Source: Phycisphaeraceae bacterium
Lineage (GTDB): Bacteria; Planctomycetota; Phycisphaerae; Phycisphaerales; Zrk34
Direction of reading: 5' to 3'
Assembly: GCA_028282805.1 (NCBI GenBank)
Contig: JANQHD010000010.1
Coordinates: 186,001 to 250,000 of the forward strand
DNA: 64,000 nucleotides
Position numbers and translations under genes: made by a program. The notes beneath the pieces were generated by a model. That model saw only the letters and a program-made list of their open reading frames with translations, had not been told where the DNA came from and searched no databases. Numbering within the stretch: the first letter of the stretch is position 1; the number at the start of each line of letters is the position of its first letter. Positions 14,295-51,886 of the stretch are shown piece after piece.

Positions 14295-14320
14295 GGTTGC
14301 GTTCGGTGAGAGGCGAAGGA

Positions 14321-34467: not shown

Positions 34468-34496
34468 TTCTAATGTTCTTAAGAACTTTAGAATAA
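34468..34496. repeat. CTTAAG-centred palindrome, copy 1 of the AT-rich type
   Basis: A 26-bp inverted repeat with the core GTTCTTAAGAAC and arms TTCTAA/TTAGAA, one internal mismatch. A 29-bp stretch is identical to 42218-42246. It lies in the convergent gap between the alpha/beta hydrolase and the zinc-ribbon gene and is strikingly AT-rich against the background. Confidence 0.85.
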
Positions 34497-34571
34497 GAGA
34501 CGCCCGCAAATCACGCCAAAACACCCGCTCGTGCGCCGGCATGGGTGATAGAACAAGCCGTATGGCGTGGG

Positions 34572-34898
34572 TCAGCGCCAGCGGTCGTCGGGGGCGATCT
34601 TGCGGTCCCACTCGGTGTCGGGGTCTTTGGCGAAGGCGCGGTCGGCCTGTTGCACGCAGTCGAAGCACACCGCCGCCCCACCGCTGCGCCAGCCGCGATC
34701 GCCGGCTTGCCTTTCCTGTTGGCACAACGTGCACTTAAACACTTCGGGCAGCTCGGCCGCTTCGTCGATCGCGCGGGCCAAACACGCCAAACACAAAATC
34801 GAGCCCCGGTGCCCTTCGATCATGGGCTTGACCTGGTCCCAATCCGTCTCGCAAAAATCGCAGGCGAGTACGACGCCCTCTTTGGTGTGTTTCTGCAT
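34572..34898 (-). CDS. Small double zinc-ribbon protein
   Basis: 108 aa with four Cys pairs: CDFC, CLAC, CTLC and CFDC, enough for two zinc sites. No catalytic motif. Start at MQKHTKEGVVLACDFC, preceded by GAGGG. It begins 10 bp after the stop of the GH113-like gene and so is probably co-transcribed with it. Function unknown. Confidence 0.7.
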   Translation of the reverse strand: MQKHTKEGVVLACDFCETDWDQVKPMIEGHRGSILCLACLARAIDEAAELPEVFKCTLCQQERQAGDRGWRSGGAAVCFDCVQQADRAFAKDPDTEWDRKIAPDDRWR

Positions 34899-34908
34899 GG
34901 CCCTCACG

Positions 34909-36009
34909 TTACTCCGCGCTGCGACGATTCAAAAACGTCTTCAACAGTTCGTAAGTCGGTTTGCCCTTGACGCCGTAACCCGTGTTGCCCGGGCCCGGCG
35001 GGTGGTGGATGTCCCACTCGTAAAAGAACACGCCCTTCAAGTGCGTGCGCGCACCGCTCGGCGGTTGCCCGGTCAGTTGGTCGGCCCAGCACTCCAAGAA
35101 CGCCTCGTAACCGCGCCGCTGCACGTCGGGCGTCGCCTCGGTCCCGCCCTCGGCCACGTAGTTCCACGGGTCTTTCAGGCCCCACGGCAGCGAAGGGTAG
35201 CCGATCTCGGTAAACACCACCGGCTTCCCCTTCTTCCCCGCGAACGCCATCACCTGCTTGCGGATCTCGCGCCAGCGCTTGACCAGGTCCGCGTCGCTCG
35301 CGGCGGCCGCGTCGTCGGTCAGCCGCCAGTACCCGTTGATGCCCACCAGGTCCAGCCGGTCCCAGAACGCCGGCTCGTGGTAGTGGTCCCAGTTGGTCGA
35401 GTAGAGCAACCGCCCGCGGTACGTCGCGCGCACCTTGCCGATCAGCGTGTGCCAGCGTTCGGTTTGGTCCTCGGTGCTGAGCAGTTCGCTGCCGACGCTG
35501 AACATGTCCACGCCGCTGCGCTGCGCGAGGCGCGCGAACCGCAGCATGTGCGTCGTGTAGTTCGACCACCACGCGTCCCAGTCGTCGGGCATGAGCTTGC
35601 CGCGCCACTCGTTGTCGCGCGGCTCGGCGTACAAAACGATCGGCATCAGGTGCACGGCCAGGCCCTTCGCCTTGGCGTGCTTGATGATCGCCTCGAGTTG
35701 GGCGTCGGTCGGGCAGCGTGAGGGGTCGCGCACCAGGTCGGTGGTCCCGCCGTGGGTCTGGTAGATCGGTGTGACGAGCTCAACAGCCCCGCAGCCAAGC
35801 GCGGCGATCTCGTCGATCGCGTCGGTGTAGCGTTTGACATCGCCCACGTAGTGCACGCCCAGCGCAAAACCGATGAAGCGATCCAACTCGCCCCGCGGTT
35901 CGGCGGGCGCGGCCGGCGCGGCGTCCGAGCCGGGCGCGGGCGTGCTCAGCGCCATAACAAACGCCGCGCCCCACAGCACCAGCGCGGCGAGCAGCACGAG
36001 GTTCGACAT
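34909..36009 (-). CDS. GH113-like glycoside hydrolase, membrane-anchored or secreted
   Basis: 366 aa with an N-terminal signal/anchor (MSNLVLLAALVLWGAAFVMAL) and a TIM-barrel glycoside hydrolase domain. Matching points are GAVELVTPIYQTHGG, AKAKGLAVHLMPIVL, the probable acid/base Glu in MFSVGSELLSTE and the nucleophile Glu in VVFTEIGYPSLPWG, as in GH113 beta-mannanases. The substrate is not provable. Co-directional with the zinc-ribbon gene downstream and divergent from the LpxB-like gene. Confidence 0.75.
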   Translation of the reverse strand: MSNLVLLAALVLWGAAFVMALSTPAPGSDAAPAAPAEPRGELDRFIGFALGVHYVGDVKRYTDAIDEIAALGCGAVELVTPIYQTHGGTTDLVRDPSRCPTDAQLEAIIKHAKAKGLAVHLMPIVLYAEPRDNEWRGKLMPDDWDAWWSNYTTHMLRFARLAQRSGVDMFSVGSELLSTEDQTERWHTLIGKVRATYRGRLLYSTNWDHYHEPAFWDRLDLVGINGYWRLTDDAAAASDADLVKRWREIRKQVMAFAGKKGKPVVFTEIGYPSLPWGLKDPWNYVAEGGTEATPDVQRRGYEAFLECWADQLTGQPPSGARTHLKGVFFYEWDIHHPPGPGNTGYGVKGKPTYELLKTFLNRRSAE

Positions 36010-36093
36010 GGTCCGGGCCGACGACACCACGGCTTATGTTACGCGCCAAAACCGTTGGTTGACAGGCGGCGTGGGCGGGGCGACCCTGAGCGC

Positions 36094-37299
36094 ATGTCCA
36101 AGCGGCCCGGCATCCTGTTTACCGCGTTCGAGCGGAGCGGCGACGAGCACGCCGCGCCCGTGATCGCCGAGCTGCGCCGCATGGCCCCCGACACGCCCAT
36201 CTACGCCACCGGCGGCCGGCACATGCAAGAGGCCGGGGCCGAGTTGATCGAGCACACCGACCACATGGGCCTGATGCTCGCCGACTCGGCGGGCGAGATC
36301 CCCGAGCACTTCCGCCGGCTGGGGCGGCTGAAAAAGTGGCTGGCCGAGCACCCGGTCGCGGTGCACGTGCCGACCGATTCGCCCGCGGCCAACTGGGACA
36401 TCTGCAAGCTCATCAAACGCCGCTACGGCAAGCCCACCGCCGACCGGCCCGCGGCCAAGGTCGTGCACCTGGTGGCGCCGCAGATCTGGGCCTGGGCCCA
36501 GTGGCGCGTCCGCAAGCTCCGCCGGTGCAGCGACCTGGTGCTCTGCCTGCTGCCGTTCGAACCCAACTGGTTCGAGAAGCGCGGCATCCGCGCCCGGTAC
36601 ATCGGCCACCCGCTGTTCAACCACCCCATCGACCAGGACGCGTTCAACTGGCAGTCGATCGGTTACCCCGCCGGCGCGCCGAAGGTCGCGCTGATGCCGG
36701 GGTCGCGGCCGAAGGAGCTGGTGCGCAACTGGCCGATCATGTTCGAGGCCTGGCAGAAGCTGTCCGAGCGCTACCCCGACGCGCAGGCGGTGGTGGCGGG
36801 CGTGCACGAGGTCGCGCTCGAGAAGCTGCGCAAGATCACACCCGACATCCCCGAGAACATGAAGCTGGTGCACAGCCAAACCGACACCGTCGTCAACTGG
36901 GCCGACGTGGTGCTCGCGGTCAGCGGCACGGTCTCGCTGCACATCGCCCGGCAGTCCAAGCCGATGGCGCTGCTCTACCGCGTCAACGCGTTCAGCTGGT
37001 ACACGGTCGGCCAGTTCCTGGTGAAGGCGCGCACGTTCACCCTGCCCAACCTCATCGCGGCCGGCCGGGTCGAGGGCGCCAACAAGGACAAGCACGTGGT
37101 GCGCGAGTTCGTGCCCTTCCTCGGCGGCGGCGTGCAGCCGATCGCCGACGAGCTGAGCCGATTGATCGACGACGAAAAAGCCTACGCCGAACAGGTCGCG
37201 GCGCTCAACGGCATCGTCGAGCAGCTCTCGCGCCACGACGCCGGCCGCGAAGCGGCCGAAGCGATCGTCGGCGTGATGCGCGCGGCGCAGGCGGTGTAG
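36094..37299 (+). CDS. lpxB: LpxB-like lipid-A-disaccharide synthase family glycosyltransferase
   Basis: 401 aa GT19-type protein. Segments matching LpxB: SGDEHAAPVIAELRRM, VAPQIWAWAQWRVRKLRRCSDLVLCLLPFEPNWFEKRG, IGHPLFNH, VALMPGSRPKEL and the C-terminal VSGTVSLHIARQSKPMALLYRVN ... TLPNLIA. The usual GEASGD loop reads FERSGD, so a divergent lipid A or related glycolipid substrate is possible. The start at MSKRPGILFTAFERSGD gives the family length; the open frame upstream is non-homologous. Confidence 0.82.
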   Translation: MSKRPGILFTAFERSGDEHAAPVIAELRRMAPDTPIYATGGRHMQEAGAELIEHTDHMGLMLADSAGEIPEHFRRLGRLKKWLAEHPVAVHVPTDSPAANWDICKLIKRRYGKPTADRPAAKVVHLVAPQIWAWAQWRVRKLRRCSDLVLCLLPFEPNWFEKRGIRARYIGHPLFNHPIDQDAFNWQSIGYPAGAPKVALMPGSRPKELVRNWPIMFEAWQKLSERYPDAQAVVAGVHEVALEKLRKITPDIPENMKLVHSQTDTVVNWADVVLAVSGTVSLHIARQSKPMALLYRVNAFSWYTVGQFLVKARTFTLPNLIAAGRVEGANKDKHVVREFVPFLGGGVQPIADELSRLIDDEKAYAEQVAALNGIVEQLSRHDAGREAAEAIVGVMRAAQAV

Positions 37300-37302
37300 G
37301 GG

Positions 37303-37416
37303 ATAGCCACCGAGCCATCGAGCCACCCAGCCATCTAGAAGAACGGGCAACCACCCGAACTTCGCGGATGTCACATTGTTCTCGTTGGCTGGGTGGCTCG
37401 ATGGCTCGGTGGCTAT
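37303..37416. repeat. Perfect 31-bp inverted repeat built of octamers
   Basis: Left arm 37303-37333 and right arm 37386-37416 are exactly complementary over 31 bp and are made of GAGCCATC/GAGCCACC octamers; the loop is 52 bp. It fills the convergent gap between the LpxB-like gene and the universal stress protein gene. The octamer matches the array at 22828-22926. Confidence 0.9.
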
Positions 37417-37420
37417 GGCG

Positions 37421-37846
37421 TTAGATCGTCCCCGCCCAGTCGGGGGGAAACACGAGCACGGGCAGTTCGCTGGAGCGCATGATCTGTTGGGGGATGTCGC
37501 CGGCGAGCAGGCGGGCGACGCGGCCCTTGCCGGATGCGCCGAGCGCGATCATCGTCACGTCGTGGGCGGCGGCGGCGTTGAGGATGGCCCGGCCGATGTC
37601 GTCGCCGAACAGCAGCACGCCCTCGGCGGTGATGTGGGCGTCGGCGAGCTTGCCGGTGAGGGTGGCGAGGGTTTGTTCGCCGCGCTCGCGGGCGTCGGAC
37701 TCGCTGGTGTCCTCGTCCTGGGTCTGGGCCACGTGCGCCACGACCACGGACGCCGACAACCGAGCCGCGAGGTCGCGGATCGATTCGCACAGCTTTTCGC
37801 TCGCCCAAGGCGTGCTCACGGCGACGAGGATGCGGCTGGTGGCCAA
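37421..37846 (-). CDS. Universal stress protein (UspA family)
   Basis: 141 aa. ILVAVSTPW at the N-terminus and the ATP-binding signature GASGKGRVARLLAGDIPQQIMRSSELPVLVF (G-2x-G-9x-G) at the C-terminus. I place the start at TTG 37846, with GGAG upstream, because a promoter-like TTGTGA...TAAAAT lies between it and the upstream ATG at 37942, and because it gives the family length. Confidence 0.82.
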   Translation of the reverse strand: MATSRILVAVSTPWASEKLCESIRDLAARLSASVVVAHVAQTQDEDTSESDARERGEQTLATLTGKLADAHITAEGVLLFGDDIGRAILNAAAAHDVTMIALGASGKGRVARLLAGDIPQQIMRSSELPVLVFPPDWAGTI

Positions 37847-37885
37847 GGTTCGGGCGCTCCGGTCATTGGGGTGCGTAGCGGAAAA

Positions 37886-37915
37886 GAGTATTTTACCGTT
37901 CCTGGCCCGATCACA
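37886..37915 (-). promoter_or_regulatory. Probable promoter of the universal stress protein gene
   Basis: Minus strand TTGTGA, about 15-16 bp spacer, TAAAAT, ending about 40 bp before the TTG start at 37846. Its position argues against the longer ORF starting at 37942. Confidence 0.5.
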
Positions 37916-37941
37916 ACACCTCGGGCCGAATGGCAGGGACA

Positions 37942-37970
37942 TTGCCCGATAACGCGTGTTTCGCCATAAT
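37942..37970 (+). promoter_or_regulatory. Promoter of the transketolase gene
   Basis: TTGCCC, 17-bp spacer, CATAAT, giving a leader of about 65 nt before the ATG at 38043. Predicted by eye. Confidence 0.6.
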
Positions 37971-38042
37971 CTGCCCGACCCACAACGAAGATGCCGACCG
38001 GGGCGGTATCGACCGCATCATCCCCACAGGGAGTTGACAAGG

Positions 38043-40010
38043 ATGAGTTACACCGCCTCGGTGCACGCCAAAGCGATCGACCTGACCAAGCTGACCTACG
38101 CGATGACCACCGCCGCGGGCTCGGGCCACCCGACCAGCGGCGCGTCGCTGGCGCACCTGACGACGGTGCTGATGTACGACCACATGCGCCACGACCCGGC
38201 CGAGCCGGCGCACCCGGCGTCCGACCGGCTGGTGCTCAGCGAGGGCCACGCCGTGCCGGTCGTGTACGCGGCGTGCGCAGACCTGGGGGTGCACGCGGTG
38301 TTCGACGGCCGGGTCCGCGCCATGACGCGCGACGACGCGATGACGCTGCGCCAGTTCGACTCGCCCGTCGACGGCCACCCCAACCCCGTCGAGGGCTTCC
38401 CGTTCTTTGACGCCGCCACCGGCTCGCTCGGCCAGGGCCTGTCGGTCGCCGCCGGCATCGCGCTGGCCGCGCGGCTCGACGGCGGCGACCGGCGCGTGTT
38501 CTGCCTGATCGGCGACGGCGAGAGCCGCGAGGGCCAGGTGTGGGAAGCGGTCGATTTCATCGCCGACCAGCGGCTCGCAGCGGTGTGCCCGATCTTCAAC
38601 TGCAACGCGTTCGCCCAGTCGGACGCGGTCGCCGCGCAACAGACCGCCGAGGTGACCGTCGCGAAGCTGAAGGCGGTGGGTTACGAGGTCGCCGACATCG
38701 ACGGCCACGACCCCGAACAGATCAAGCAAGCCCTCGACGCGCACGCCGCGAACCAGGCGGGCGCGGGCGGACCGTTCGCCATCGTCGCCCGCACCGCCAA
38801 GGGTTGGGGCGCGGCCAGCCAGCAGGGCAACGGGCACCACGGCACGGCGGTCAAAGCCGATGCGCTCGATGCGCTCAGCGCCGAGTTCGACGCCACGGCG
38901 GCGCAGCTCGGCGCGACGTGGACCGAGGGCGACCTGACCATCAAGCCGATCACCCACACCCCGCCCGCGCCGGCCGAACCGCAGCCGATGCCCACGCTCA
39001 GCGGGGCGCTCGAGCAGTTCGGCAAGGCCGATGTGCTCGGTAAGGGCAAGTGGGCCACTCGCCGGGCGTACGGCGTGGCGCTGCGGGCGCTGGGCCTGGC
39101 CAACGGCAACGTCGTCGCGCTCGACGCCGACGTGCAAGGCTCGACCGGCGCCGCCGACTTCGCGCAAGACGACCGGCTCGCCGGGCGTTTCGTCGAGTGC
39201 CGCATCGCCGAGCAGAACATGGTCTCCGTGGCCGCGGGTATGGGTGCGGCCGGCAGGGTCGCCTTCGCCTCGACTTTCGCCAAGTTCTTCACGCGGGCCT
39301 ACGACCAGGTGGAGATGGCGATCAACAGCGGGCTGAACTTCAAGCTGGTCGGCTCGCACGCGGGCGTGACGCTGGGCGCCGACGGGCCGAGCCAGATGGG
39401 CATGCCGGACGTGGCGTGGTTCCGCGCGTTTACCAAGGTGCGGCGCAAGGACGGGCACCCGGCGATGTACGTGCTCAACCCCGCCGACGCGTTCGCCGCG
39501 TACAAGCTGGTCGGCGTGATGGCGGCGCACGACGGGCCGTGTTACATGCGGACGATGCGGCCGGACACCGACGTGCTGTACGACGACAAGACGCCGTTCA
39601 CCCTCGGCGGCCACGAGCTGCTGGCCGAGGGCGGCGACCTGCTGATCTGCGCCAGCGGTTACATGGTGCACCAGGCCCACCGCGCGTTGGACGCGCTGGA
39701 GGACGCGGGCGTCAGCGCGACGTTGGTCGACCTGTACTGCCTGCCGTTCGACCGCGACGCGATCGCGGAGCTGGCGATCAACGCCGGCGGCAACGTGCTG
39801 ACGCTGGAAGACAACTACGTCGGCGGCATCGGTGCGGCGGTGTGCGAGGCGCTGGCCGAGCGCGGGGTGGGGGCGAAGGTCGTGCAGAAGTTCGTCACCA
39901 CCACGCCCAAATCGGCGTTGAAGCCCGACGAGGTGATCGCCGACCAGGGCCTGACCGTCGACGACATCGTCAACACCGCGTCGACCATGTTGCAGTTGGC
40001 CTCGACCTGA
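38043..40010 (+). CDS. tkt: Transketolase
   Basis: 655 aa TPP enzyme transferring two-carbon ketol units in the pentose phosphate pathway. TPP/Mg motif LIGDGESREGQVWEA ... FNCN, the N-terminal GSGHPTSGASLAHL, and the pyrimidine-domain catalytic Glu in CRIAEQNMVSVAAGM are all present. The sequence resembles the animal/archaeal transketolase branch (GDGES, YDHMRHDP). The start at MSYTASVHAKAIDL has AAGG upstream. A second, different transketolase-family gene follows 110 bp downstream. Confidence 0.92.
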   Translation: MSYTASVHAKAIDLTKLTYAMTTAAGSGHPTSGASLAHLTTVLMYDHMRHDPAEPAHPASDRLVLSEGHAVPVVYAACADLGVHAVFDGRVRAMTRDDAMTLRQFDSPVDGHPNPVEGFPFFDAATGSLGQGLSVAAGIALAARLDGGDRRVFCLIGDGESREGQVWEAVDFIADQRLAAVCPIFNCNAFAQSDAVAAQQTAEVTVAKLKAVGYEVADIDGHDPEQIKQALDAHAANQAGAGGPFAIVARTAKGWGAASQQGNGHHGTAVKADALDALSAEFDATAAQLGATWTEGDLTIKPITHTPPAPAEPQPMPTLSGALEQFGKADVLGKGKWATRRAYGVALRALGLANGNVVALDADVQGSTGAADFAQDDRLAGRFVECRIAEQNMVSVAAGMGAAGRVAFASTFAKFFTRAYDQVEMAINSGLNFKLVGSHAGVTLGADGPSQMGMPDVAWFRAFTKVRRKDGHPAMYVLNPADAFAAYKLVGVMAAHDGPCYMRTMRPDTDVLYDDKTPFTLGGHELLAEGGDLLICASGYMVHQAHRALDALEDAGVSATLVDLYCLPFDRDAIAELAINAGGNVLTLEDNYVGGIGAAVCEALAERGVGAKVVQKFVTTTPKSALKPDEVIADQGLTVDDIVNTASTMLQLAST

Positions 40011-40120
40011 CCGAAACGCTTGGTTATGATCCGCCGTCGCGCCCGCGTTAAACGTGGTCGACGCCGCTTTCGTTTCGTGTAGCGATGCACGCACGCCCGT
40101 AAACCCGACAGGATCAGACC

Positions 40121-42034
40121 ATGCCCACCGCCACCGCCGCTTTTCCCATTGACCTGGCCAGCTACCGCCCCGTCGCGATCGACCCGTGGGCGACCGAGAC
40201 GCTGACCGACGAGCAGCGACAGGCCTTGCGGTACAACATCGACCTCTGCCGCGACGCGATCGTGTACTTCACGGCCACCGGCGCGGCCAAGGGCGTGGGC
40301 GGGCACACCGGCGGGCCGTACGACACCGTGCCCGAGGTGATAATCGCCGACGCGCTGTTCCGCGGCGCACCCGACAAGTTCGTGCCGATCTTTTGGGACG
40401 AGGCCGGCCACCGCGTGGCCACGCAGTACCTCATGGCCGCCGTGCACGGCGACCTGCCCGCCGAGCAACTCAACCGCTACCGTGAGGCGCATTCGACGCT
40501 GCCGGGCCACCCGGAACTCGGCCTCACGCCGGGCGTCAAGTTCTCGTCGGGCCGGCTGGGGCACATCTGGCCGTACATCAACGGCGTGGCGCTGGCCAAC
40601 CCGGGCAAAACATTGCTCATGCTCGGCTCCGACGGCTCGCAACAGGAAGGCAACGACGCCGAGGCCGCCCGGCTCGCCGTCTCGCAACAGCTCAACATCA
40701 AGCTGCTCATCGACGACAACGACGTGACCATCGCCGGCCACCCCTCGCAGTACATGCCCGGCTTCGACGTGGCCAAAACCCTCGAAGGCCACGGCCTGCC
40801 CACGCTCGTCGGCGATGGCGAAGACCTCGATGCGCTCTACGAACGCATGCGCACCGCCGTGACCACCGACGGGCCCGTCGCCGTGATCAACAAGCGGCCG
40901 ATGTGCGTCGGCATCGAACCCATCGAAGGCACCACGCACGGCCACGACGTGATCAGCGTCGACCACGCGATCGCACACCTGACTAAGCGCGGCCGCACCG
41001 AGGCCGTCGACGCGCTGCGGTCGATCGACAAGCCCGCCCGCCCCGTCGACTTCCGCGGCTCGGGCGATAAGTGGGACTCGAACCGAAACGTGTTCGGGCA
41101 GACCGTCGCCGAGTTGATGAGCGCGATGACCAAAACCGAGCGCGAGAACGTGCTGTGCATCGACTCGGACCTCGCCGGCTCGTGCGGGCTGAACAAAGTT
41201 CAAGCCGCGCACCCCGAGCGGTTCGTCTCCGCGGGCATCATGGAGCGCGGCAACCTGTCGGCCGCGGCGGGCTTCGGCATGGCCGAGGGCAAGCAGGGCA
41301 TCTTCGGCACGTTCAGCGCCTTCCTCGAGATGTGCGTCAGCGAGGTCACCATGGCCCGGCTGAACTTCTCGAACGTGCTGTGCCACTTCTCGCACGCCGG
41401 CATCGACGACATGGCCGACAACACCTGCCACTTCGGCTTGAACAACCTGTTCGCCGACAACGGCCTCGACGACGGCCACCCCACCAGAGTCTACTTCCCC
41501 GCCGACGCGAACCAGATGCGCGCGGCGGTCGACGCCACGTTCAACGACCCCGGCCTGCGCTTCGTGTTTTCGACGCGCTCGAAGGTGCCCAACATACTCG
41601 ACGAAAACGGCGACGACCTGTACGCCGGCGATTACACGTTCACCCCCGGCGTCGACGAGGTCGTGCGCGACGCCGAGTCGGGCGGCTTCGTCGTCAGCTT
41701 CGGCGAGTGCTTGTACCGCGCCCTCGACGCCGTCGAACGGCTCCGCGCCGACGGTTACGACGTGGGCCTGATCAACAAGCCCACGCTCAACGTGGTTGAC
41801 GAAAAGACGATGGCCCGCCTCGGCGCCGCGCCGTGGGTGATGGTGGTCGAGTCGTTCAACCGCCGCACGGGGTTGGGCAGCCGCATGGGCAGCTGGCTGC
41901 TCGAACGCCGGCTCACGCCGCGTTACGCCTACCTCGGCGTCACCCGCGAGGGCTGCGGCGGCCTGTGGGAACAACACGCCCACCAGGGCATCGACGCCGA
42001 CGGCATCGTCGCCGCCGTCAAAGAAATCGCGTAA
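40121..42034 (+). CDS. Divergent transketolase-family TPP enzyme
   Basis: 637 aa covering all three transketolase domains: GHTGGPYDTVPEV near the N-terminus, TPP/Mg segment LGSDGSQQEGNDAEAARLAV ... LIDDND, and pyrimidine domain GIMERGNLSAAAGFGMAEGKQG with the catalytic Glu. The GDG of the TPP motif reads SDG, with Mg ligands Asp and Asn retained. The usual transketolase substrate-phosphate motifs are not recognisable, so the substrate may differ. Tandem with the canonical transketolase; possibly co-transcribed. Confidence 0.8.
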   Translation: MPTATAAFPIDLASYRPVAIDPWATETLTDEQRQALRYNIDLCRDAIVYFTATGAAKGVGGHTGGPYDTVPEVIIADALFRGAPDKFVPIFWDEAGHRVATQYLMAAVHGDLPAEQLNRYREAHSTLPGHPELGLTPGVKFSSGRLGHIWPYINGVALANPGKTLLMLGSDGSQQEGNDAEAARLAVSQQLNIKLLIDDNDVTIAGHPSQYMPGFDVAKTLEGHGLPTLVGDGEDLDALYERMRTAVTTDGPVAVINKRPMCVGIEPIEGTTHGHDVISVDHAIAHLTKRGRTEAVDALRSIDKPARPVDFRGSGDKWDSNRNVFGQTVAELMSAMTKTERENVLCIDSDLAGSCGLNKVQAAHPERFVSAGIMERGNLSAAAGFGMAEGKQGIFGTFSAFLEMCVSEVTMARLNFSNVLCHFSHAGIDDMADNTCHFGLNNLFADNGLDDGHPTRVYFPADANQMRAAVDATFNDPGLRFVFSTRSKVPNILDENGDDLYAGDYTFTPGVDEVVRDAESGGFVVSFGECLYRALDAVERLRADGYDVGLINKPTLNVVDEKTMARLGAAPWVMVVESFNRRTGLGSRMGSWLLERRLTPRYAYLGVTREGCGGLWEQHAHQGIDADGIVAAVKEIA

Positions 42035-42213
42035 GTCAACCGGCGACCTGCGATCTTCAAGCTTCGATCTCACCCAAGCCCCGGGTTGAGCGCCGAGCCC
42101 GCGAGGCCGAAACCCGGGGGTACGCGCTGAGACCAACAAGCCGTATTAACGAAGCGCAACACGCAACCCTCACACGCAACGCACGGCCACCCCAAACGAT
42201 TGAACCCTGAATT

Positions 42214-42247
42214 ATTATTCTAATGTTCTTAAGAACTTTAGAATAAT
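42214..42247. repeat. CTTAAG-centred palindrome, copy 2 of the AT-rich type
   Basis: A 34-bp inverted repeat (ATTATTCTAA... ) with the core GTTCTTAAGAAC and a single mismatch, at the same position as in the copy at 34468. It lies between the converging transketolase-like gene and fetB. Confidence 0.87.
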
Positions 42248-42300
42248 GAAGCGCACCCTAAACACAATCAAACCCCTTGTTTCATAGTGTGTGCTCAATT

Positions 42301-42398: not shown

Positions 42399-42401
42399 CG
42401 G

Positions 42402-43226
42402 TTACCGGCGTGACCCGTTGCGTGTGGCGCCCAGCGCCGCGCGGTCGAGTTGCCAGGCGTTCGAGAATAACCGCCGCCCCACCCACGCACCGATCGCCAC
42501 GGCGCACAGCAGGTCGCAGATGAGGATGCCCACGAGGATCAGCAGCTGGTACATCGCCGCGTCAAACGGCGGCGACCCGCCGAGCATCTGGCCGGTCATC
42601 ATGCCCGGCAGCTTCACCACGCCGACAAGCAGCATCGCGTTGATCGTGGGCGTCAGCGCCGCGCCGACCGCGGCGCGGTAAGCCGGCCGCATCGCCTGCC
42701 ACGGGCTGGCGCCGAGCGCGAGCATCGCTTCGACATCGCGCGCATCGCGTGCCGTGTCCGCCGCCACGCGTTCGGCGGCGAGCGTCGCGGCGGTCATCGC
42801 GTTGCCCAGCAGCATGCCGCCGATCGGGATCAGGTATCGCGGGTCCCACCCGTCCACGCCGATCACCAGCTTGCCGAAGAACAGCAGCATCATCGCCGTC
42901 ACGCCCCCGAGCACCAGCGACAGCACGCCGCGCAGCGCCCCGACGTGCCGGCGCAGCTGCGCCGCGCCCGTGAAACCAGCGACCAGGGTCATCGCCACCA
43001 GCAGCGCGACGACCCAGTACCAACGCTCCGCGGCGAACACGTAACCGATCACCAGTCCGACCGCGACCAGTTGCACCACCGCGCGCAGCATCGCCCACGT
43101 GATGCGACCGGCCAAGCCCAGCTTCAAACCGATCGACAAACCGACCGCCACCGCCACGGGGATCGCCAACAGCACCAGCGACAGCCAGCCCAGTTCGATC
43201 ACCGCGATGGTTGTTTCAGGCCTCAT
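42402..43226 (-). CDS. fetB: FetB-type ABC exporter permease (UPF0014 family)
   Basis: About 274 aa with seven hydrophobic segments. GGMLLGNAMTAATLAAERV and LALGASPWQAMRPAYRAAVGAALTPTINAMLLVGVVKLPGMMTGQMLGG are the UPF0014/FetB signatures. In E. coli FetAB exports iron and protects against peroxide. The start (43226, or 43232) overlaps the end of the ATPase gene, so the two are translated together. Confidence 0.87.
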   Translation of the reverse strand: MRPETTIAVIELGWLSLVLLAIPVAVAVGLSIGLKLGLAGRITWAMLRAVVQLVAVGLVIGYVFAAERWYWVVALLVAMTLVAGFTGAAQLRRHVGALRGVLSLVLGGVTAMMLLFFGKLVIGVDGWDPRYLIPIGGMLLGNAMTAATLAAERVAADTARDARDVEAMLALGASPWQAMRPAYRAAVGAALTPTINAMLLVGVVKLPGMMTGQMLGGSPPFDAAMYQLLILVGILICDLLCAVAIGAWVGRRLFSNAWQLDRAALGATRNGSRR

Positions 43227-43968: not shown

Positions 43969-43986
43969 GTCACGCCCGCCATCATA

Positions 43987-44010
43987 TAGCCCCCGGCATG
44001 CCGGGGGCTA
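43987..44010. repeat. 24-bp perfect palindrome, second copy
   Basis: TAGCCCCCGGCATG... and its complement, identical to the core of 14209-14238. It overlaps the stop codon of the zinc-ribbon gene (44008-44010), so the TAG stop is contributed by the palindrome itself. It probably separates that gene from fetAB. Confidence 0.85.
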
Positions 44011-44253
44011 AATGCCCACGACCCACACCAACACGATCACCGCCACCAGCGCGGCCACCACCCAGGGCCAGATCGCGTGCCGTGTGCGTCCGAAGCCTTT
44101 GACCTGCCGGTGGCGCATCTGCAACCACACGCCGCACCCGGGGCACTTCTCGGCGTACGCGTAGACCTCCGCCCCACAGTGCGGGCAGTCGATCACGTCC
44201 GCCGCGTCGTCGAACAGGTCCGCATCGTGATCGTCGGGGCCCAGGTCGGTCAT
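44008..44253 (-). CDS. Small zinc-ribbon membrane protein
   Basis: 81 aa. An acidic N-terminus (MTDLGPDDHDADLFDDAADV), a zinc ribbon (CPHCGAEVYAYAEKCPGCG), then a single C-terminal transmembrane segment (WPWVVAALVAVIVLVWVVGI). Tail-anchored small protein of unknown function. Start chosen at this Met as it gives a compact protein; one Met lies seven codons upstream. Confidence 0.7.
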   Translation of the reverse strand: MTDLGPDDHDADLFDDAADVIDCPHCGAEVYAYAEKCPGCGVWLQMRHRQVKGFGRTRHAIWPWVVAALVAVIVLVWVVGI

Positions 44254-44333
44254 CACCAGATGATAACACCTCAAACAGCGGTCCGGGCAGAGCGGTCATG
44301 TACGGCACACGACCCATGAGTTACCCTGTCATC

Positions 44334-44627: not shown

Positions 44628-44654
44628 GCGTCGGGTATCACCACGAGGGACGGC

Positions 44655-44843
44655 ATGAAGCGCTATCTCACAGCCATGGGCCGGTTGTTTGGGGCGATGA
44701 TCAGACACCCGTGGGTCTTTGCGCGGGCGGTGAAGACGGTGCCTTCGGTCTGCGGGGCGCACGTGTTTGCGCGGGGTCATCATCATAGCGCTAAGCCGCG
44801 AGCGGCTTATGGTGGGGACGAGGGCAACCTGCGGGAGGGGTGA
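44655..44843 (+). CDS. Doubtful small ORF
   Basis: 62 aa with a GAGGGA ribosome-binding-like sequence before the ATG. The last third overlaps a TAAGCCGC/GCGGCTTA hairpin (44792-44809) of the type found between genes here, so the coding part may be shorter or absent. No homology suggested. Confidence 0.3.
   Translation: MKRYLTAMGRLFGAMIRHPWVFARAVKTVPSVCGAHVFARGHHHSAKPRAAYGGDEGNLREG
44792..44809. terminator. TAAGCCGC hairpin ahead of converging nuoG
   Basis: An 8-bp stem with a 2-nt loop of the TTAGC/GCTAA style seen elsewhere in the window. It lies 68 bp beyond the nuoG stop on the minus strand. Confidence 0.45.
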
Positions 44844-44876
44844 CGGAGGCGGATGGGGCGAGCGGTCGAGGGTGCG

Positions 44877-46487: not shown

Positions 46488-46685
46488 GGCGTTCGGCTAT
46501 TCGTCAAAACGAGCGTCTTCACAGGCGGATGGTGGCCATCCAACGGCGGGTCATCGTAGCCGAATCGCCGAAGCCCATCCACCAGCGTGCAAACAGAAGC
46601 CAAGCATCCGACGACACCCGTGCGAGGGCTTGCGCGTGGCTAAAAGCGAGAACGCACGAGGCATCACACGCGGTCGCCCTTGGGT

Positions 46686-46967
46686 TTAAAAGCAGGATTC
46701 CAACCAGGCCGCCGCTTTTCGCATAGCCCGGCGGTCGAGCTTGCACATGACCCGCCGGCCAACCGGGGAAGTTCGGATCAGCCCCGTCTCGCGGAGGATG
46801 TTCAGGTGCTGGTTGATGTTTTCGGGTGAAAGCCGCAGCGCCTGCCGCAGGTCGAGCACCGACACCGCCCCCGCGGTGAGCATGGCGACGATCTCCCGCC
46901 GGATCGGGTGGGCCAACCCCCGGAACGCGTCGCGCCGCTGCGATTCGGTCATGCGTGGTCTGGACAT
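46686..46967 (-). CDS. ArsR-family transcriptional regulator
   Basis: 93-aa winged-helix protein: RRDAFRGLAHPIRREIVAMLTAGAVSVLDLRQALRLSPENINQHLNILRETGLIRTSPVGRRVMCKL. The recognition helix is SPENINQHLNIL. The metal-binding ELCVCDL motif of classic ArsR proteins is absent (VSVLDL), so it probably senses something else. A perfect 21-bp palindrome 3 bp upstream of its start suggests autoregulation. Confidence 0.85.
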   Translation of the reverse strand: MSRPRMTESQRRDAFRGLAHPIRREIVAMLTAGAVSVLDLRQALRLSPENINQHLNILRETGLIRTSPVGRRVMCKLDRRAMRKAAAWLESCF

Positions 46968-46970
46968 GAA

Positions 46971-46991
46971 CGAAATTTAACTTAAATTTCG
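46971..46991. promoter_or_regulatory. Perfect palindromic operator of the ArsR-type regulator
   Basis: CGAAATTTAA, one central base, then its exact complement TTAAATTTCG. AT-rich in a GC-rich genome and placed 3 bp upstream of the regulator's start codon, also within the upstream region of divergent dapB. Confidence 0.8.
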
Positions 46992-47067
46992 TGTGGCGGC
47001 AATCGAAAAACACGTTGGTGTGCAGGGCCGGTCAGACGAGCCGGGCGCTTGCGTTACAATGACCGCC

Positions 47068-47874
47068 ATGAACGAACAAGCCATCACCCGTATCGCCATC
47101 GCCGGGGCCGCGGGGCGCATGGGCCAGCGGCTGTGCGACCTGTGCCAGCAGCACCCCGCGCTCACGCTCGCCGAGGCGATCGACCTGCCCGCCAGCCCCG
47201 CCCTCGGCCAACCCGCCCCCGGAACCGCCCCCGCCCCCGGGTGTGCCGCGGTCATCACCGACACATATTCCGGGGGCGCCGACGTGATGATCGACTTCAC
47301 GCTGCCCGAGGCGACCGCGGCGAACATCGCGCGCTGCGTCGAAACCCGCACCGCCCTCGTGCTCGGCACCACCGGCCTGACCGACGCCCACCAACACCAA
47401 CTCGACGACGCGGCCCAAACCATCGGCGTCGTGCAGGCGACCAACTTCTCGCTCGTGGTCAACGTGCTCAACAAGCTCGCCGCGCAAGCCGCCCAGCTGC
47501 TCGGCGACGCCTACGACATCGAAATCCACGAAGCCCACCACCGCTTCAAGAAAGACGCCCCCTCCGGCACCGCGCTCACCCTCGCCCGCGCCATCTGCGA
47601 CGCGACCGGCCGCGACTTCGACCGCGACGTGGTGCTCGGCCGAGCCGGCGACGACGCCCAACGCAAGCCCCGCGAGATCGCGGTGCAGGCCCTGCGCCTC
47701 GGCGATGTGGTCGGCGAGCACACCGTGCACTACGCCACCATCGGCGAGCGCATGGAGCTGCGGCACGTCGGCACCAGCCGCGACAGCTATGCGACCGGTG
47801 CGCTGCACGCCGCGCAATGGCTCGCCGCTCAACCCGCGGGCCGGTACGCGATGAACGACGTGCTGGGGCTTTGA
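47068..47874 (+). CDS. dapB: 4-hydroxy-tetrahydrodipicolinate reductase
   Basis: 268 aa; reduces the DapA product in lysine/diaminopimelate synthesis. N-terminal dinucleotide-binding IAIAGAAGRMGQRLCDL, VMIDFTLPEAT, LGTTGL, ATNFSLVVNVLNKL and the catalytic EIHEAHHRFKKDAPSGTAL are all present. An ATG three codons upstream (47059) is possible, but a TTACAAT box covers it and suggests the later Met. It is divergent from the ArsR-type gene. Confidence 0.94.
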   Translation: MNEQAITRIAIAGAAGRMGQRLCDLCQQHPALTLAEAIDLPASPALGQPAPGTAPAPGCAAVITDTYSGGADVMIDFTLPEATAANIARCVETRTALVLGTTGLTDAHQHQLDDAAQTIGVVQATNFSLVVNVLNKLAAQAAQLLGDAYDIEIHEAHHRFKKDAPSGTALTLARAICDATGRDFDRDVVLGRAGDDAQRKPREIAVQALRLGDVVGEHTVHYATIGERMELRHVGTSRDSYATGALHAAQWLAAQPAGRYAMNDVLGL

Positions 47875-47879
47875 CAAAT

Positions 47880-47900
47880 CCGGAATGCGGAATCCGGAAT
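47880..47900. repeat. Three tandem CCGGAAT-type heptamers
   Basis: CCGGAAT, GCGGAAT, CCGGAAT between dapB and the next gene. Same unit (ATTCCGC complement) as the arrays in the ribosomal operon. Confidence 0.6.
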
Positions 47901-47903
47901 CTG

Positions 47904-48356
47904 ATGCTTTACTTCGCCTACGGCTCCAACCTGAACCCGCCGCAGATGGCCGAGCGTTGCCCGGGGCACGCGGTGGTCGCGCGAGCGGTGTTGCGCGATT
48001 ACCGGTTGGTGTTCCCGTGCGCGAGCAGCCGTTGGGTCGGCGGCGTGGCGAGCGTCGAACCGTCGGCGGGCGACGTGGTCGAGGGCGTGTTGTTCGAACT
48101 CACGGCCGAGAACGAAGCGGCGCTCGACCGCTACGAAGGCGTGGCCGAGGGCATGTACCGCAAAACAAGGGTTGAGGTCGTCGACAACCACGGGCGATCG
48201 CACGAGGCGCTGACATACATCGCCAAGCCCCAACCCCCCGGGCGCCACGACCCGTCACCGCGTTACATGAATGCGATCATCGACGGCGCGCTCGCGCACG
48301 GCCTGAGCGGCGACTACCTCGCCGCCCTGCGCGCGATCCCCACCCACCACCGCTGA
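47904..48356 (+). CDS. Gamma-glutamylcyclotransferase-fold protein
   Basis: 150 aa with the family start LYFAYGSNLNPPQM (the YGSNL substrate loop), DYRLVFPCAS, the probable catalytic Glu in VEGVLFELTAENEAALDRYEGV, and a C-terminal SPRYMNAIIDGALAHGL. GGCT/AIG2-like proteins form 5-oxoproline from gamma-glutamyl compounds, but many bacterial members have unknown substrates. 29 bp after dapB. Confidence 0.85.
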   Translation: MLYFAYGSNLNPPQMAERCPGHAVVARAVLRDYRLVFPCASSRWVGGVASVEPSAGDVVEGVLFELTAENEAALDRYEGVAEGMYRKTRVEVVDNHGRSHEALTYIAKPQPPGRHDPSPRYMNAIIDGALAHGLSGDYLAALRAIPTHHR

Positions 48357-48379
48357 CCGCACGTTTGGCGTGGTCGTTT

Positions 48380-48405
48380 GGCGTGGTCACTTAAGTGACC
48401 ACGCC
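48380..48405. repeat. CTTAAG-centred palindrome, copy 1 of the GC-rich type
   Basis: A 26-bp perfect palindrome (GGCGTGGTCAC joined through TTAAG to its complement), identical at 51861-51886. It lies in the 55-bp convergent gap between the cyclotransferase-fold gene and the next gene. A partial copy of the left arm (TTTGGCGTGGTC) precedes it. Confidence 0.9.
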
Positions 48406-48411
48406 GTCCGT

Positions 48412-49002
48412 TCACCGCTTGAGCTTGCCCTGCCAGACGGGGGCGAGGCGCCAACCCCTGGCGTGTCGTGCGTGGCCCTTGGTTGCGACGGTCGGCAGCG
48501 CCGGTGGGTGGTCGGAGGGAAGCAGGTCGGCTCTCCAGTGCTTCGCCTGGCCGCCGTGATCGGCGAGCACGACCCACGAGATGCGCGACAGGTCGCCACG
48601 GTACATGACCGAGAACACCTCGCGTTCGGTCTTGCCCACAAAGTTCGTCTGCTTCAGGTGCGGCACGGCCCAGTGGCCCGCGTAACGTGGCTCGCCCAGC
48701 ACCCACCACGGATCGAAGTGCCACAAACGACACGCCCGCTCGATCGTATCCGGCCTCGCGGGTTCGAACGCTTCGGCGCCCTCGACGTTCAAACAGATCC
48801 GCCGCCACGGCCAGGCGCTCGCCGTCCCCGACTCGCAATCGATGAACACGATCTCGTCGCTGTGCTCGCTGACGAGCATCAGCATCTTCACGTGGCCGGC
48901 CCGGTCAAAAAACGGAAACAGCGACGCGTCGTCGACCGCCGTCTGGCCGATGACGACGCCGCGCTTGAGCAGGCCCTTCGCTCGGACGGGTGGGCGGAAC
49001 AT
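48412..49002 (-). CDS. Hypothetical protein
   Basis: 196 aa, no motif recognised. It contains a segment rich in Trp and His (WHFDPWWVLGEPRYAGHWAVP) and a Pro/His-rich C-terminal part. It lies 3 bp downstream of the slipin gene and is probably the last gene of a GntR-slipin operon. Confidence 0.65.
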   Translation of the reverse strand: MFRPPVRAKGLLKRGVVIGQTAVDDASLFPFFDRAGHVKMLMLVSEHSDEIVFIDCESGTASAWPWRRICLNVEGAEAFEPARPDTIERACRLWHFDPWWVLGEPRYAGHWAVPHLKQTNFVGKTEREVFSVMYRGDLSRISWVVLADHGGQAKHWRADLLPSDHPPALPTVATKGHARHARGWRLAPVWQGKLKR

Positions 49003-49005
49003 GGC

Positions 49006-49890
49006 TTACCCCCGCGGCTCGCTCGGTTCGTCGCCCTCGTACTTGAACCCCATCGACGCCATGCCGACCAGGCCCGGGTCCATCGCGTTGGCCATGCCCG
49101 ACGGCACCACCATCAGCGCCCCCCGCTCCTTGATCGACTCGTAGGTCATGTTCATCGCGCGCAGCCGCATCGCGTGCGAGTTGCGGTCGTACACGTTGGC
49201 CGCCTGTTCCATCTGCTCGGCGACCAACAGCTCGCTCTCCGCGAGGATGATGCGCGCCTCCTTCTCGCGGTCGGCCTGCGCCTTGCGGCTCATCGCGTCC
49301 TCCAACGCCCCCGGGATTTTCACATCACGTATCTCAACAGATTGCACGGTGATGCCCCACTCCGTGGTCTTCGCATCGATCGTTTCCTGCAACTCCGCGT
49401 CCAGCGATTCGCGGTCGGAGATCATGCGCACCAGCTCGCTGCGCCCGATCACGTCGCGCAGCGTGGTCTGCGCCGCCCAGGTGATCGTTTTGAGGTAGCC
49501 CTCGACTTCGAGGATGGCCTTCTCGGCGTCGTTGACGATCCAGAACAACACCGCGTCGACGTTCACGGGCACGGTGTCGCGCGTCAGCGTCTTCTCGGCG
49601 GAGAACGCCGTGGAACGCACGCGCATGTCGACGATCGACGTGATCGCGTCGATCCCCGGGATCACCCACGAGATGCCCGGCTTGACGATGCGCTGGTACT
49701 TGCCCAGCCGCAGCAACACGCCCCGCTCCCACTCGCGGATCAACCGCGGCGAGCCGGCCAAGTAGACGCCCACGACGAAAACGCCGATCGTCAACCACAG
49801 CTTGTCGACCGCGAGATCGAGCACCACCGAGATGATCAACGCGGCTAACAGCATCAACGCGGTCACGATATTAGCGCTACCTCTTAACAC
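49006..49890 (-). CDS. Slipin/stomatin-like SPFH (band 7) membrane protein
   Basis: 294 aa. Two N-terminal hydrophobic segments (9-50) followed by the SPFH domain: EWERGVLLRLGKYQRIVKPGISWVIPGID, VPVNVDAVLFWIV, AAQTTLRDVIGRSEL, then a helical region VEIRDVKIPGALEDAMSRKAQADREKEARIILAESEL. Slipins form membrane microdomain scaffolds. Its start overlaps the end of the GntR gene by 14 bases. Confidence 0.9.
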   Translation of the reverse strand: MLRGSANIVTALMLLAALIISVVLDLAVDKLWLTIGVFVVGVYLAGSPRLIREWERGVLLRLGKYQRIVKPGISWVIPGIDAITSIVDMRVRSTAFSAEKTLTRDTVPVNVDAVLFWIVNDAEKAILEVEGYLKTITWAAQTTLRDVIGRSELVRMISDRESLDAELQETIDAKTTEWGITVQSVEIRDVKIPGALEDAMSRKAQADREKEARIILAESELLVAEQMEQAANVYDRNSHAMRLRAMNMTYESIKERGALMVVPSGMANAMDPGLVGMASMGFKYEGDEPSEPRG

Positions 49891-50275
49891 GGCGTACCTC
49901 CTTCCATCGGGTCTCGATGAATTGGCTCAACTCGAAGGCGTTCATCCCGGCGCCCTGCGCCAGGTCGATGATCCGGTCGGCGGCCCTTTCTATCGCGCGC
50001 AGGTCGGCGCGCTTCATCGGCGCCCCCGCCCCCTCGGCGACGAACGTGCCCACGCCACGCTCGAGGCGCAACAGCCCCTCGGCCTGCAACTCCCGGTACA
50101 CCCGGGCGACCGTGTTGGCGTTGATGCCCAACTCGACGGCCAACCCGCGCACGGTCGGCATCGGGTCGCCGATCTTCAACTCCCCCTCGCGCACGAGCAG
50201 CCGGATGCGCTCGGCCAGCTGCAGGTAAACCGGCAGTCCCGCGGACTTGTCGATCTGGATGGCCGGTGCGTTCAT
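49877..50275 (-). CDS. Short GntR-family regulator (YtrA-like)
   Basis: 132 aa. N-terminal winged helix-turn-helix PVYLQLAERIRLLVREGELKIGDPMPTVRGLAVELGINANTVARVYRELQAEGLLRLERGVGTFVAE, then a short helical tail instead of a ligand-binding domain, as in YtrA-type regulators. Start at MNAPAIQIDKSAG. It overlaps the slipin gene, which it probably controls together with itself. Confidence 0.87.
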   Translation of the reverse strand: MNAPAIQIDKSAGLPVYLQLAERIRLLVREGELKIGDPMPTVRGLAVELGINANTVARVYRELQAEGLLRLERGVGTFVAEGAGAPMKRADLRAIERAADRIIDLAQGAGMNAFELSQFIETRWKEVRRVKR

Positions 50276-50308
50276 GGGGGCGCGTCGCCGAAATCGCAAT
50301 TGAATTAT

Positions 50309-50328
50309 TGTATTAGCATACTAGTACA
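50309..50328. promoter_or_regulatory. Candidate operator of the GntR regulator
   Basis: A 20-bp imperfect palindrome with 8 of 10 position pairs matching: TGTA, TAG, AT, CTA, TACA in order. It overlaps a promoter-like TTGTTT/TAATAC on the minus strand and lies between the divergent GntR and sulfatase genes. Confidence 0.6.
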
Positions 50329-50435
50329 TTAAAACAATGGTGTCAAGCGGCGATCCGGCCCTGAAATGCGGAAAAACGGGTGACTGCGCCCCGCCGGCGG
50401 GTGCGTCCTTTGACACAACAGGCAAGGAGACGAGC

Positions 50436-51836
50436 ATGAATCGGGCTGACGTGGTGGTCGGTTTGGGTCTGTCGTGGGCGCTGTCTGCGTTGGCGTTGGG
50501 TTGTGCCGCGGCGCAAGCAACCGAAGGCCCGTCGAAGCCGAACGTGATCGTGATCTTCACCGACGACCACGGCTTCGCCGACCTCGGCGCCCAAGGTGTG
50601 CGCGACGATGTCAAAACCCCGCACCTGGACCGGCTGGCGGCGGGCGGCGTACGGATGACGCACGGCTACGTCACCGCCCCGCAGTGCGTGCCCTCGCGCG
50701 CGGGGCTGCTGACCGGGCGCTACCAGACGCGCTTCAACCTCGAAACCAACCACGACGGCCCGCTGTTGCACGGCGAGGTCACGATCGCCGAGCGATTGAA
50801 ACGGGCGGGCTACATCACGGGCATGTGCGGCAAGTGGCACCTCAACCCGAACCGGCAGAGCAAGAACACGCCGCCGGGCGCCAAGCCGTTGGATTTCATG
50901 CCCCACCGCCAGGGCTTCGACGAGTACCTGTGCGGCCCGAGGCGGCGCTACCTCGCGTCGCACGACGCCAAGGGCAACAAACTCGACAAGCCCGCCATGG
51001 TCGAGGACCGGCGTTTCCGCATCGACGTGCAATCGGACTGGGCGGTGAACTTCATCGACCGCCACGCGGGCGGCGACGAGCCGTTCTTGTTGTACGTGTC
51101 ATACTTCGCGCCGCACGTGCCGTTGGAGGCGACGGACAGATACCTTGCGCGTTTTCCGGGCGAGATGCCGCATGAGCGCCGGCTGGCGTTGGCGATGCTG
51201 GCCGCGATCGACGACGGTGTCGGCCGGATCACGGAGAAGCTCGAAGAACACGGCGTCGAGCGCAACACGCTCGTCTTTTTCATCAGCGACAACGGCGCGC
51301 CGCTTAAACAGGGCGCGTGGGATGGGTCGCTCAACGAACCGTTGGTGGGCGAAAAGGGCATGCTCACCGACGGCGGCGTGCGGGTGCCGTTCCTCGTGAG
51401 TTGGCCGGGCGTGCTGCCGGCGGGCGAGGTGTACGAGAAACCGGTGATCTCGCTGGACGTCGCGGCGACCGCGAACGCGTTGGCCGGCCTGCCGCACGAC
51501 GAGGCGCTCGACGGGGTGAACCTCGTGCCCCACCTGCGCAGCGAGGCCGAGGTGCCGCCCCACGACCGGCTGTACTGGCGCTGGCGTTCGCAGGCCGCGG
51601 TGCGCCAGGGCCGGTGGAAGCTGATCATGCTCGGCGAGCACCACCGCTTGCTCTTCGACCTCGCGTCGCCGCAGCACGAACACGCCAACGTCATCGCCGA
51701 TCACCCCGAGGTCGCCGCCGAGCTGGAAGCCCACCTCAAACGCTGGGCCGCGGCACAGAACCCCGCGGGCCTGCCCACCGGCAAGCTCCACCCCGAGGGC
51801 TCGAAGTTCTTCCGCGCGCACCTCACTCGCCCCTAA
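50436..51836 (+). CDS. Secreted sulfatase (Cys-type, family S1)
   Basis: 466 aa with a signal peptide (residues 1-28, ends CAAAQA). Sulfatase landmarks: NVIVIFTDDHGFADLG (metal Asp pair), the formylglycine site CVPSRAGLLTGRYQTRF with the Cys to be modified, GKWHLN, VFFISDNGAP and GVRVPFLVSWPG. Predicted to cleave sulfate esters of polysaccharides in the periplasm, typical of marine planctomycetes. An AAGGAGA ribosome binding site fixes the start. No maturase or sulfated-glycan genes are next to it. Confidence 0.92.
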   Translation: MNRADVVVGLGLSWALSALALGCAAAQATEGPSKPNVIVIFTDDHGFADLGAQGVRDDVKTPHLDRLAAGGVRMTHGYVTAPQCVPSRAGLLTGRYQTRFNLETNHDGPLLHGEVTIAERLKRAGYITGMCGKWHLNPNRQSKNTPPGAKPLDFMPHRQGFDEYLCGPRRRYLASHDAKGNKLDKPAMVEDRRFRIDVQSDWAVNFIDRHAGGDEPFLLYVSYFAPHVPLEATDRYLARFPGEMPHERRLALAMLAAIDDGVGRITEKLEEHGVERNTLVFFISDNGAPLKQGAWDGSLNEPLVGEKGMLTDGGVRVPFLVSWPGVLPAGEVYEKPVISLDVAATANALAGLPHDEALDGVNLVPHLRSEAEVPPHDRLYWRWRSQAAVRQGRWKLIMLGEHHRLLFDLASPQHEHANVIADHPEVAAELEAHLKRWAAAQNPAGLPTGKLHPEGSKFFRAHLTRP

Positions 51837-51860
51837 CCGACCGGCGGGTCATGACCGGGC

Positions 51861-51886
51861 GGCGTGGTCACTTAAGTGACCACGCC
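51861..51886. repeat. CTTAAG-centred palindrome, copy 2 of the GC-rich type
   Basis: Identical over 26 bp to 48380-48405, 24 bp downstream of the sulfatase stop in a convergent gap. Confidence 0.9.

Follow-up and report, generated by a model that had tools for sequence, protein, structure and literature searches.

What function accounts for four palindromes centred on the hexamer CTTAAG, two AT-rich and two GC-rich, that all lie between the 3′ ends of converging genes in a 64-kb stretch of a Phycisphaeraceae bacterium genome (contig JANQHD010000010.1; hereafter 'the window', meaning the whole stretch of DNA analyzed)? A preliminary description of this stretch proposed bidirectional terminators, protein-binding sites for chromosome organization or dispersed mobile repeats. 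Here, copies of both palindrome types were sought throughout the source genome (G000; 3.91 Mb in 56 contigs), its relatives within the order and a wide collection of other genomes, and the genes accompanying them were compared. Because of gene adjacency, codon constraint, matched sites among paralogues and co-occurrence, we consider it highly probable that a small winged-helix protein binds the AT palindrome, a prediction made from sequence comparison.

Results

A winged-helix gene accompanies the AT palindrome

When all open frames lying up to 1.5 kb from 91 sites were compared, the largest family proved to be a protein of about 90 residues, encoded at 20 loci that include one in the source genome. 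The family consists of winged-helix proteins matching HTH_5, MarR and HTH_24; two members score 29.1 and 27.2 bits against HTH_5 (cut-off 22), MarR scores fall near or above cut-off, and the only Pfam domains above cut-off on the protein are DNA-binding ones. A structural model built from 15 family members (mean predicted local distance difference test score 82) displays a winged helix followed by a C-terminal helix carrying an FLRTLE tail, and its best solved Foldseek matches are AspA of plasmid pNOB8 (ranks 1, 3 and 5), MarR and ArsR-type repressors. The source genome encodes the protein in a single copy outside the window (Table 1), with one palindrome at the 3′ end of the gene and another 39 bp upstream. 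All 20 genes near sites (20/20) end in palindrome-like DNA coding for ...FLR(T/S)LE and the stop, and most of them possess a palindrome within approximately 60 bp of the start. Vertical inheritance within the family was rejected, the four genes of the order remaining ungrouped in a tree of few columns and weak support. In a distant winged-helix branch in Patescibacteria (L244-L247, L252-L255), the gene is mostly preceded by a TTCG-centred palindrome, and tails such as ISNSRE overlap a half copy at the gene end in some members.

Protein and palindrome occur in the same genomes. Among 41 genomes of the order, strong protein matches (>110 bits) are confined to G000 (152 bits), G005 (131), G007 (120) and G008 (117), and all matches in the remaining genomes fall below 40 bits. 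AT copies with at most 3 mismatches number 30 in G000, 23 in G007 and 0 in the other 39 genomes; a variant palindrome of G005, sought in nine genomes of the family, occurs at 7 places in G005, 3 in G008 and none in the other seven. The four strong-match genomes are thus those in which a dispersed palindrome family was found, in three sequence variants, and most genomes of the order lack the protein-palindrome system. Across 188 genomes of a Patescibacteria class, the palindrome is present in 8, the protein (1e-25) in 18 and both in 6 (Fisher p 8e-6, or 2e-4 after removal of three genomes known beforehand). When 41 genomes were selected as carriers of the palindrome, 36 proved to contain a protein match at or below 1.1e-23, four none and one (G081) a weak one. 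G081, titled Planctomycetota, carries four AT palindromes (L150 531) beside its weak winged-helix match, and is perhaps an incomplete genome or one with a different partner protein.

Matched palindromes at both gene ends

The ends of 94 family genes were read, namely the four genes of the order and the best 90 of 123 matches from the 41 palindrome-bearing genomes; these genes are related and do not amount to 94 independent events. A 3′-end palindrome is present in 61 of the 94 versus 12% of random windows of equal size, an upstream palindrome in 70 versus 15%, and both in 53. Among the 50 genes scoring above 100 bits, 38 carry the 3′-end copy, 41 the upstream copy and 35 both. The palindrome itself differs between paralogues, TTCTAACATTTTGCAAAATGTTAGAA accompanying the tail FCKTLE, ACATTCTAACATTCTGCAGAATGTTAGAATGT the tail KFMKTF and CTATTTTCCTATTCGCGCGAATAGGAAAATAG the tail ISNSRE. 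Within a gene, the upstream and 3′ copies match at 17.3 of 26 positions versus 14.1 between genes (0/5000 permutations), a relationship that holds inside each of two score classes.

Relative to the end of the stop codon, the 3′ copy is mostly centred at -16, -20, -8, -2 or +7, depending on the subfamily; what is kept is therefore the DNA of the gene end and not one reading frame. Codon choice points the same way. In 33 genes with an FLRxLE tail, arginine is encoded by AGA in 32/32 cases, glutamate by GAA in 33/33 and phenylalanine by TTC in 32/33, whereas the conserved NHRR-motif arginines in these genes are spread over six codons (2.2-2.4 bits). In the source genome (66% GC), the codons CTA, TTA, AGA and ACT of the tail have relative usages of 0.9, 1.0, 0.5 and 1.3%, and the relative-usage product of the tail codons as used is 1.2e-11. 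This skew indicates that the tail is held as DNA and not only as protein. The suggestion that the palindromes are protein-binding sites survives for the AT family, where co-occurrence with the winged-helix gene and the matching operator and gene-end copies point to it.

Gene orientation in the source genome and a relative

The source genome contains 30 AT copies within 3 mismatches of TTCTAATGTTCTTAAGAACATTAGAA (28 against an asymmetric query), and its GC family comprises 12 exact 20-mers plus two copies with CTTCAG in the sampled stretches. Backwards-read control patterns gave 0 matches in this genome, from which we conclude that the long palindromes are not chance. Orientation was determined in 40 stretches that make up 20% of the genome; 25 of them surround sites, and the other 15 serve as background. 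The 30 AT sites divide into 11 convergent, 10 tandem, 5 divergent and 4 outside gaps; with each occupied gap counted once (n=21), 9 are convergent, 8 tandem and 4 divergent. The convergent share of 9/21 compares with 23/189 in the background (binomial p 4e-4; by gap length, 2e-5). The 14 GC copies comprise 4 convergent, 5 tandem and 1 divergent, with 4 outside gaps that mostly overlap gene ends; several have a predicted stop 6-26 nt away, and several are as near to the next start, in narrow gaps.

The claim that every copy is convergent thus holds for 4/4 palindromes in the window and fails genome-wide (11/30 AT, 4/14 GC). Convergence is a bias, clear for AT and weak for GC, and a rule for neither across the genome. 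The genome-wide count against gene orientation that had been proposed as a check accordingly found further copies and a non-random orientation of the AT family. Flanks of 95-151 bp are common to the AT sites L070 9785, L076 9027 and L078 9794, with 77-79% identity in two pairs, and may represent a second repeat element beside the palindromes. A sulfatase-like gene lies near five AT loci (L058, L068, L072, L074, L076); such genes may merely be common in this genome.

The relative G007 carries copies with a changed centre among those listed, for example TTATTAATAA where TTCTTAAGAA is otherwise found. Its 26 sites are 18 convergent, 8 tandem and 0 divergent, and 12/18 occupied gaps are convergent versus 3/51 in a background of only 80 kb (p 6e-8 to 2e-11, depending on the measure). 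Proteins encoded beside sites in G000 and in G007 yield weak family matches to each other, so site positions are not conserved. Sites in G007 occur along the entire chromosome (Kolmogorov-Smirnov p 0.24, or 0.76 after merging clusters), and a MatP-like macrodomain was rejected because they are not confined to one region. At L271 3979-5439, five AT-type copies approximately 350 bp apart occupy one convergent gap and share similar flanks. In both G000 and G007, pairing of the arms stops 2-3 bp outside the core, without extended arms, a limit that resembles a fixed protein footprint.

The AT core in Patescibacteria

When 84,980 species genomes were searched for the 26-bp core TTCTAAWGTTCTYRAGAACWTTAGAA, 57 stretches were recovered. 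The titles of 35 name Patescibacteria lineages (Zambryskibacteria, Liptonbacteria, Kaiserbacteria and others), 19 read just 'bacterium', and Geothermocultor, Nanoarchaeota and Planctomycetota appear in a single title each. Viral contigs contain no exact match to either the AT or the GC palindrome, and a viral origin was rejected on that basis. With a pooled gene finder that gives a coding density of 72% and misses some genes, 62 Patescibacteria sites were called as 33 tandem, 11 inside genes, 6 convergent, 3 divergent and 9 at edges.

The 12 intragenic copies listed all fall in one reading frame, the only open one, and encode (Y/H)S(N/K)VL(K/E)N(I/V/F)R. Their hosts are four TsaD, three YchF-like GTPases, one TrmD-like protein and four others, assigned by eye except for TsaD. 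Copies inside tsaD, ychF-like and trmD-like genes occur at L117 4140, L094 3098, L097 7734, L123 5607 and L101 5715, and further ones at L137 1139, L146 1435 and L108 1868; all eight encode (Y/H)SNVL(K/E)N(I/V)R. The L117 TsaD aligns without a gap through the palindrome copy to a solved TsaD; the copy adds no length, and a simple insertion was therefore rejected for it.

Arms of the Patescibacteria copies pair beyond the core to position 8, with paired fractions of 0.54-0.69 at positions 4-8 versus 0.25-0.38 expected (0/2000 permutations). The extension is locus-specific in sequence, and intergenic copies exceed intragenic ones in its length (3.2 versus 2.0 of 5 pairs). Such arms would fit an added hairpin role in these organisms.

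Discussion

A proposed mechanism and the evidence against it

We propose that the small winged-helix protein, probably as a dimer, binds the AT palindrome. It would bind both the copy upstream of its own gene and the copy formed by the last codons and stop, and so control itself from both ends, presumably by autorepression. The other copies, preferentially convergent, would be bound likewise and act as two-sided roadblocks or insulators against read-through onto the opposite strand of the neighbouring gene. The convergent bias, the presence of a site in the end of the protein's gene and the absence of U-tracts are consistent with such a role at gene ends; we advance it tentatively, at slightly under even confidence. 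For the explanation as a whole, which combines site, autocontrol and roadblock, we judge the chances to be evenly balanced. A broader generalization, which we think rather improbable, holds that a self-bracketed winged-helix family, distributed between Patescibacteria and one lineage of larger bacteria and with a separate palindrome for each member, may constitute a sequence-specific two-way transcription barrier at gene ends. Since the last codons and stop of the gene for each protein would contain the barrier site, tail and DNA site would be forced to co-evolve.

Several observations weigh against the proposed mechanism. Many AT sites of the source genome lie in tandem gaps and 5/30 are divergent, and the Patescibacteria sites are mostly not convergent (6/62), 11 being intragenic. 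A protein footprint does not explain the locus-specific extended arms of the latter. The protein genes of G007 and G008 lack a 3′-end palindrome, and that of G007 has no copy within 130 bp upstream, the nearest lying approximately 180 bp before the matched part. Strong protein matches are absent from 5 of the 41 palindrome-bearing genomes and from 2 of the 8 in the set of 188. Convergent gaps, having no promoter in them, may simply tolerate insertions. PhoB reportedly has many inert intragenic sites (PMC10294691), a warning that dispersed sites may do nothing.

Alternative explanations

The tolerance of convergent gaps bears directly on the possibility that the palindromes are mobile or selfish repeats surviving where they are least harmful, the winged-helix gene being a part or a regulator of the element. 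Dispersal, which the preliminary description had suggested, is borne out for both the AT and the GC family; single gaps of G000 and G007 hold 2-5 copies, some with similar flanks, convergent gaps are permissive, and the placement of all 12 intragenic copies in the one open frame is also in keeping with such elements. The genomic surroundings and the protein are less accommodating. All five Y1_Tnp (PF01797) matches lie approximately 2.0-4 kb from the nearest copies, none within about 2 kb and none flanking, for which reason a repetitive extragenic palindromic (REP)/RAYT system was rejected; the protein shows DNA-binding Pfam domains only, and the L117 TsaD copy is not a simple insertion. We regard mobility as unlikely to be the explanation.

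An ordinary regulon, in which the sites are operators of adjacent genes and include operators within coding sequence, would account for the upstream copy before 70/94 family genes and for the recurring Patescibacteria neighbours and hosts tsaD, murC, rsmI, ychF and trmD (identified by eye except TsaD). The occupied gaps of G000 and G007, however, are mostly convergent or tandem and not divergent, and the weak matches between their site neighbours imply that targets are not conserved; this reading, too, has a low probability.

Protein-free intrinsic terminators, whose RNA hairpin alone halts RNA polymerase in both directions, are an improbable explanation of the same data. All four window palindromes fold into stable hairpins, far better than shuffled sequences (z -3.2 to -7.3 over eight folds), the GC ones being strong on either strand; copies are positioned at gene ends, and the intergenic Patescibacteria copies have the longer paired arms. 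The convergent bias likewise fits the proposal of bidirectional terminators; what the proposal lacks is a U-tract, since no T-run follows the stem at any of the four palindromes and 0 of 19 terminator-like sites coincide with them. Terminators, furthermore, need neither an exact 26-bp sequence shared across phyla, nor a copy before the start codon, nor copies inside genes.

Chromosome-organizing or segregation sites, as for AspA, ParB or MatP, are equally improbable. In their favour, AspA, which ranks first among the structural matches, recognizes a 23-bp palindrome located upstream of the gene that encodes it (PMC5120986), the sites are dispersed, and 0/26 of those in G007 are divergent; against them, the G007 sites are chromosome-wide, no ParA/ParB-like gene was seen by eye among the six genes around the source-genome winged-helix gene, and most genomes of the order lack the system.

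Palindromes of the window and the separate GC family

The positions of the four palindromes given in the preliminary description proved correct upon rereading the window (Table 1). Its two AT copies share 29 identical bases, with one mismatched pair within the palindrome, and its two GC copies are perfect. The window contains 5 occurrences of the hexamer CTTAAG, and one of these, as had been noted, is outside the palindromes, at 6861 within the open frame 6449-6919. Shuffling predicts 2.1 occurrences, and 6/100 shuffles reach 5; the bare hexamer count is weak evidence, and the palindromes of 26-34 bp are the remarkable part.

Table 1. Coordinates of the window palindromes, their flanking genes and the winged-helix gene; genes in the window were called with our own codon-based gene finder in place of a standard annotation.
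Feature	Coordinates	Strand	Remarks
AT copy 1	34468..34496	none	core TTCTAATGTTCTTAAGAACTTTAGAA with one T-T mismatch, plus TAA; fold z -7.3 (+), -4.3 (-)
AT copy 1, flanking genes	33545-34423; 34572-34898/34909-36009	+; -	converging
AT copy 2	42214..42247	none	34 bp, core as in AT copy 1
AT copy 2, flanking genes	40121-42034; 42402-43202	+; -	transketolase-like; FetB-like permease
GC copy 1	48380..48405	none	26 bp, perfect
GC copy 1, flanking genes	47904-48356; 48412-49002	+; -	copy 23 nt past stop of first; 6 nt from 3′ end of second
GC copy 2	51861..51886	none	26 bp, perfect
GC copy 2, flanking genes	50544-51836; 52459-52917	+; -	copy 24 nt past stop of first (sulfatase-like); end of second 572 nt away
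Winged-helix gene	G000:C52:203221-203493	minus	single copy in G000, outside the window

The AT and GC palindromes have nothing but the CTTAAG centre in common. Their treatment as one system is not supported, since no gene was identified as a partner of the GC family, its copies lack shared flanks and its context is different. CTTAAG was dropped as a unifying motif, the two families differing in arms, context, flanks and distribution; a centre of 6 bp may coincide by chance. The GC palindrome has no match in the 40 relatives of the order; we interpret it as a probable species-specific repeated extragenic palindrome or hairpin, separate from the AT element. Immediately before GC copy 1, at 48363-48379, part of the GC arm (GGCGTGGTCGTTT) is repeated in direct orientation. 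The window also contains a third palindrome type, AGCCCCCGGCATGCCGGGGGCT, at 14209-14238 and 43983-44014, and a fourth, found at 14260-14295 and 33486-33515, whose arms are AAAGCCCAC...GTGGGCTTT-like and which resembles ordinary bidirectional terminators.

Significance and comparison with known systems

Among the titles and abstracts recovered from the literature, none reports this palindrome-protein system, and the core sequences and the peptides SNVLKNIR and LKFLRTLE occur in none of 5.39 million open-licence papers. Palindrome-protein pairs in the tiny genomes of Patescibacteria and in a lineage of larger genomes offer a readable protein-to-site code, with dozens of paralogues and the site attached twice. 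They also supply candidate regulators and targets (the neighbours of murC, rsmI, tsaD and ychF) for Patescibacteria, whose regulation is little known. If the convergent sites are protein roadblocks, they would represent a dedicated bacterial means of separating converging genes, and the family barrier, if true, would give bacteria an equivalent of protein roadblock terminators.

Rickettsia palindromic elements and REP elements are short dispersed palindromes, some of them in reading frames; the AT palindrome, in contrast, is tied to a presumed cognate DNA-binding protein, whose gene contains the sequence. In the MatP/matS system, one small protein serves about 20-30 palindromic sites per chromosome. 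The system described here is alike in its one small protein and its approximately 20-30 sites and unlike in that the G007 sites are not regionally confined. Palindromic operators with autoregulation are common among ArsR/MarR-type repressors, and single-domain members such as Mb0332 and HlyU resemble the new family, which scores above cut-off for HTH_5 and near or above it for MarR. The new family differs in its extra operator in the 3′ coding end and in the bias of its sites to convergent gaps; the source-genome protein contains no cysteine and, on that evidence, is not a metal- or thiol-sensing ArsR/SmtB member. The closest match in structure, AspA of pNOB8 (PDB 4rs8, 5k5q), is a dimeric winged helix of about 90 residues (Foldseek E 5e-5, template-modelling score approximately 0.7; phmmer E 0.0013) which also spreads on DNA (PMC5120986). 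The gene for AspA is followed by parB and parA; the new family, with neither of these seen, has instead dispersed chromosomal sites, one of them in the end of its own gene.

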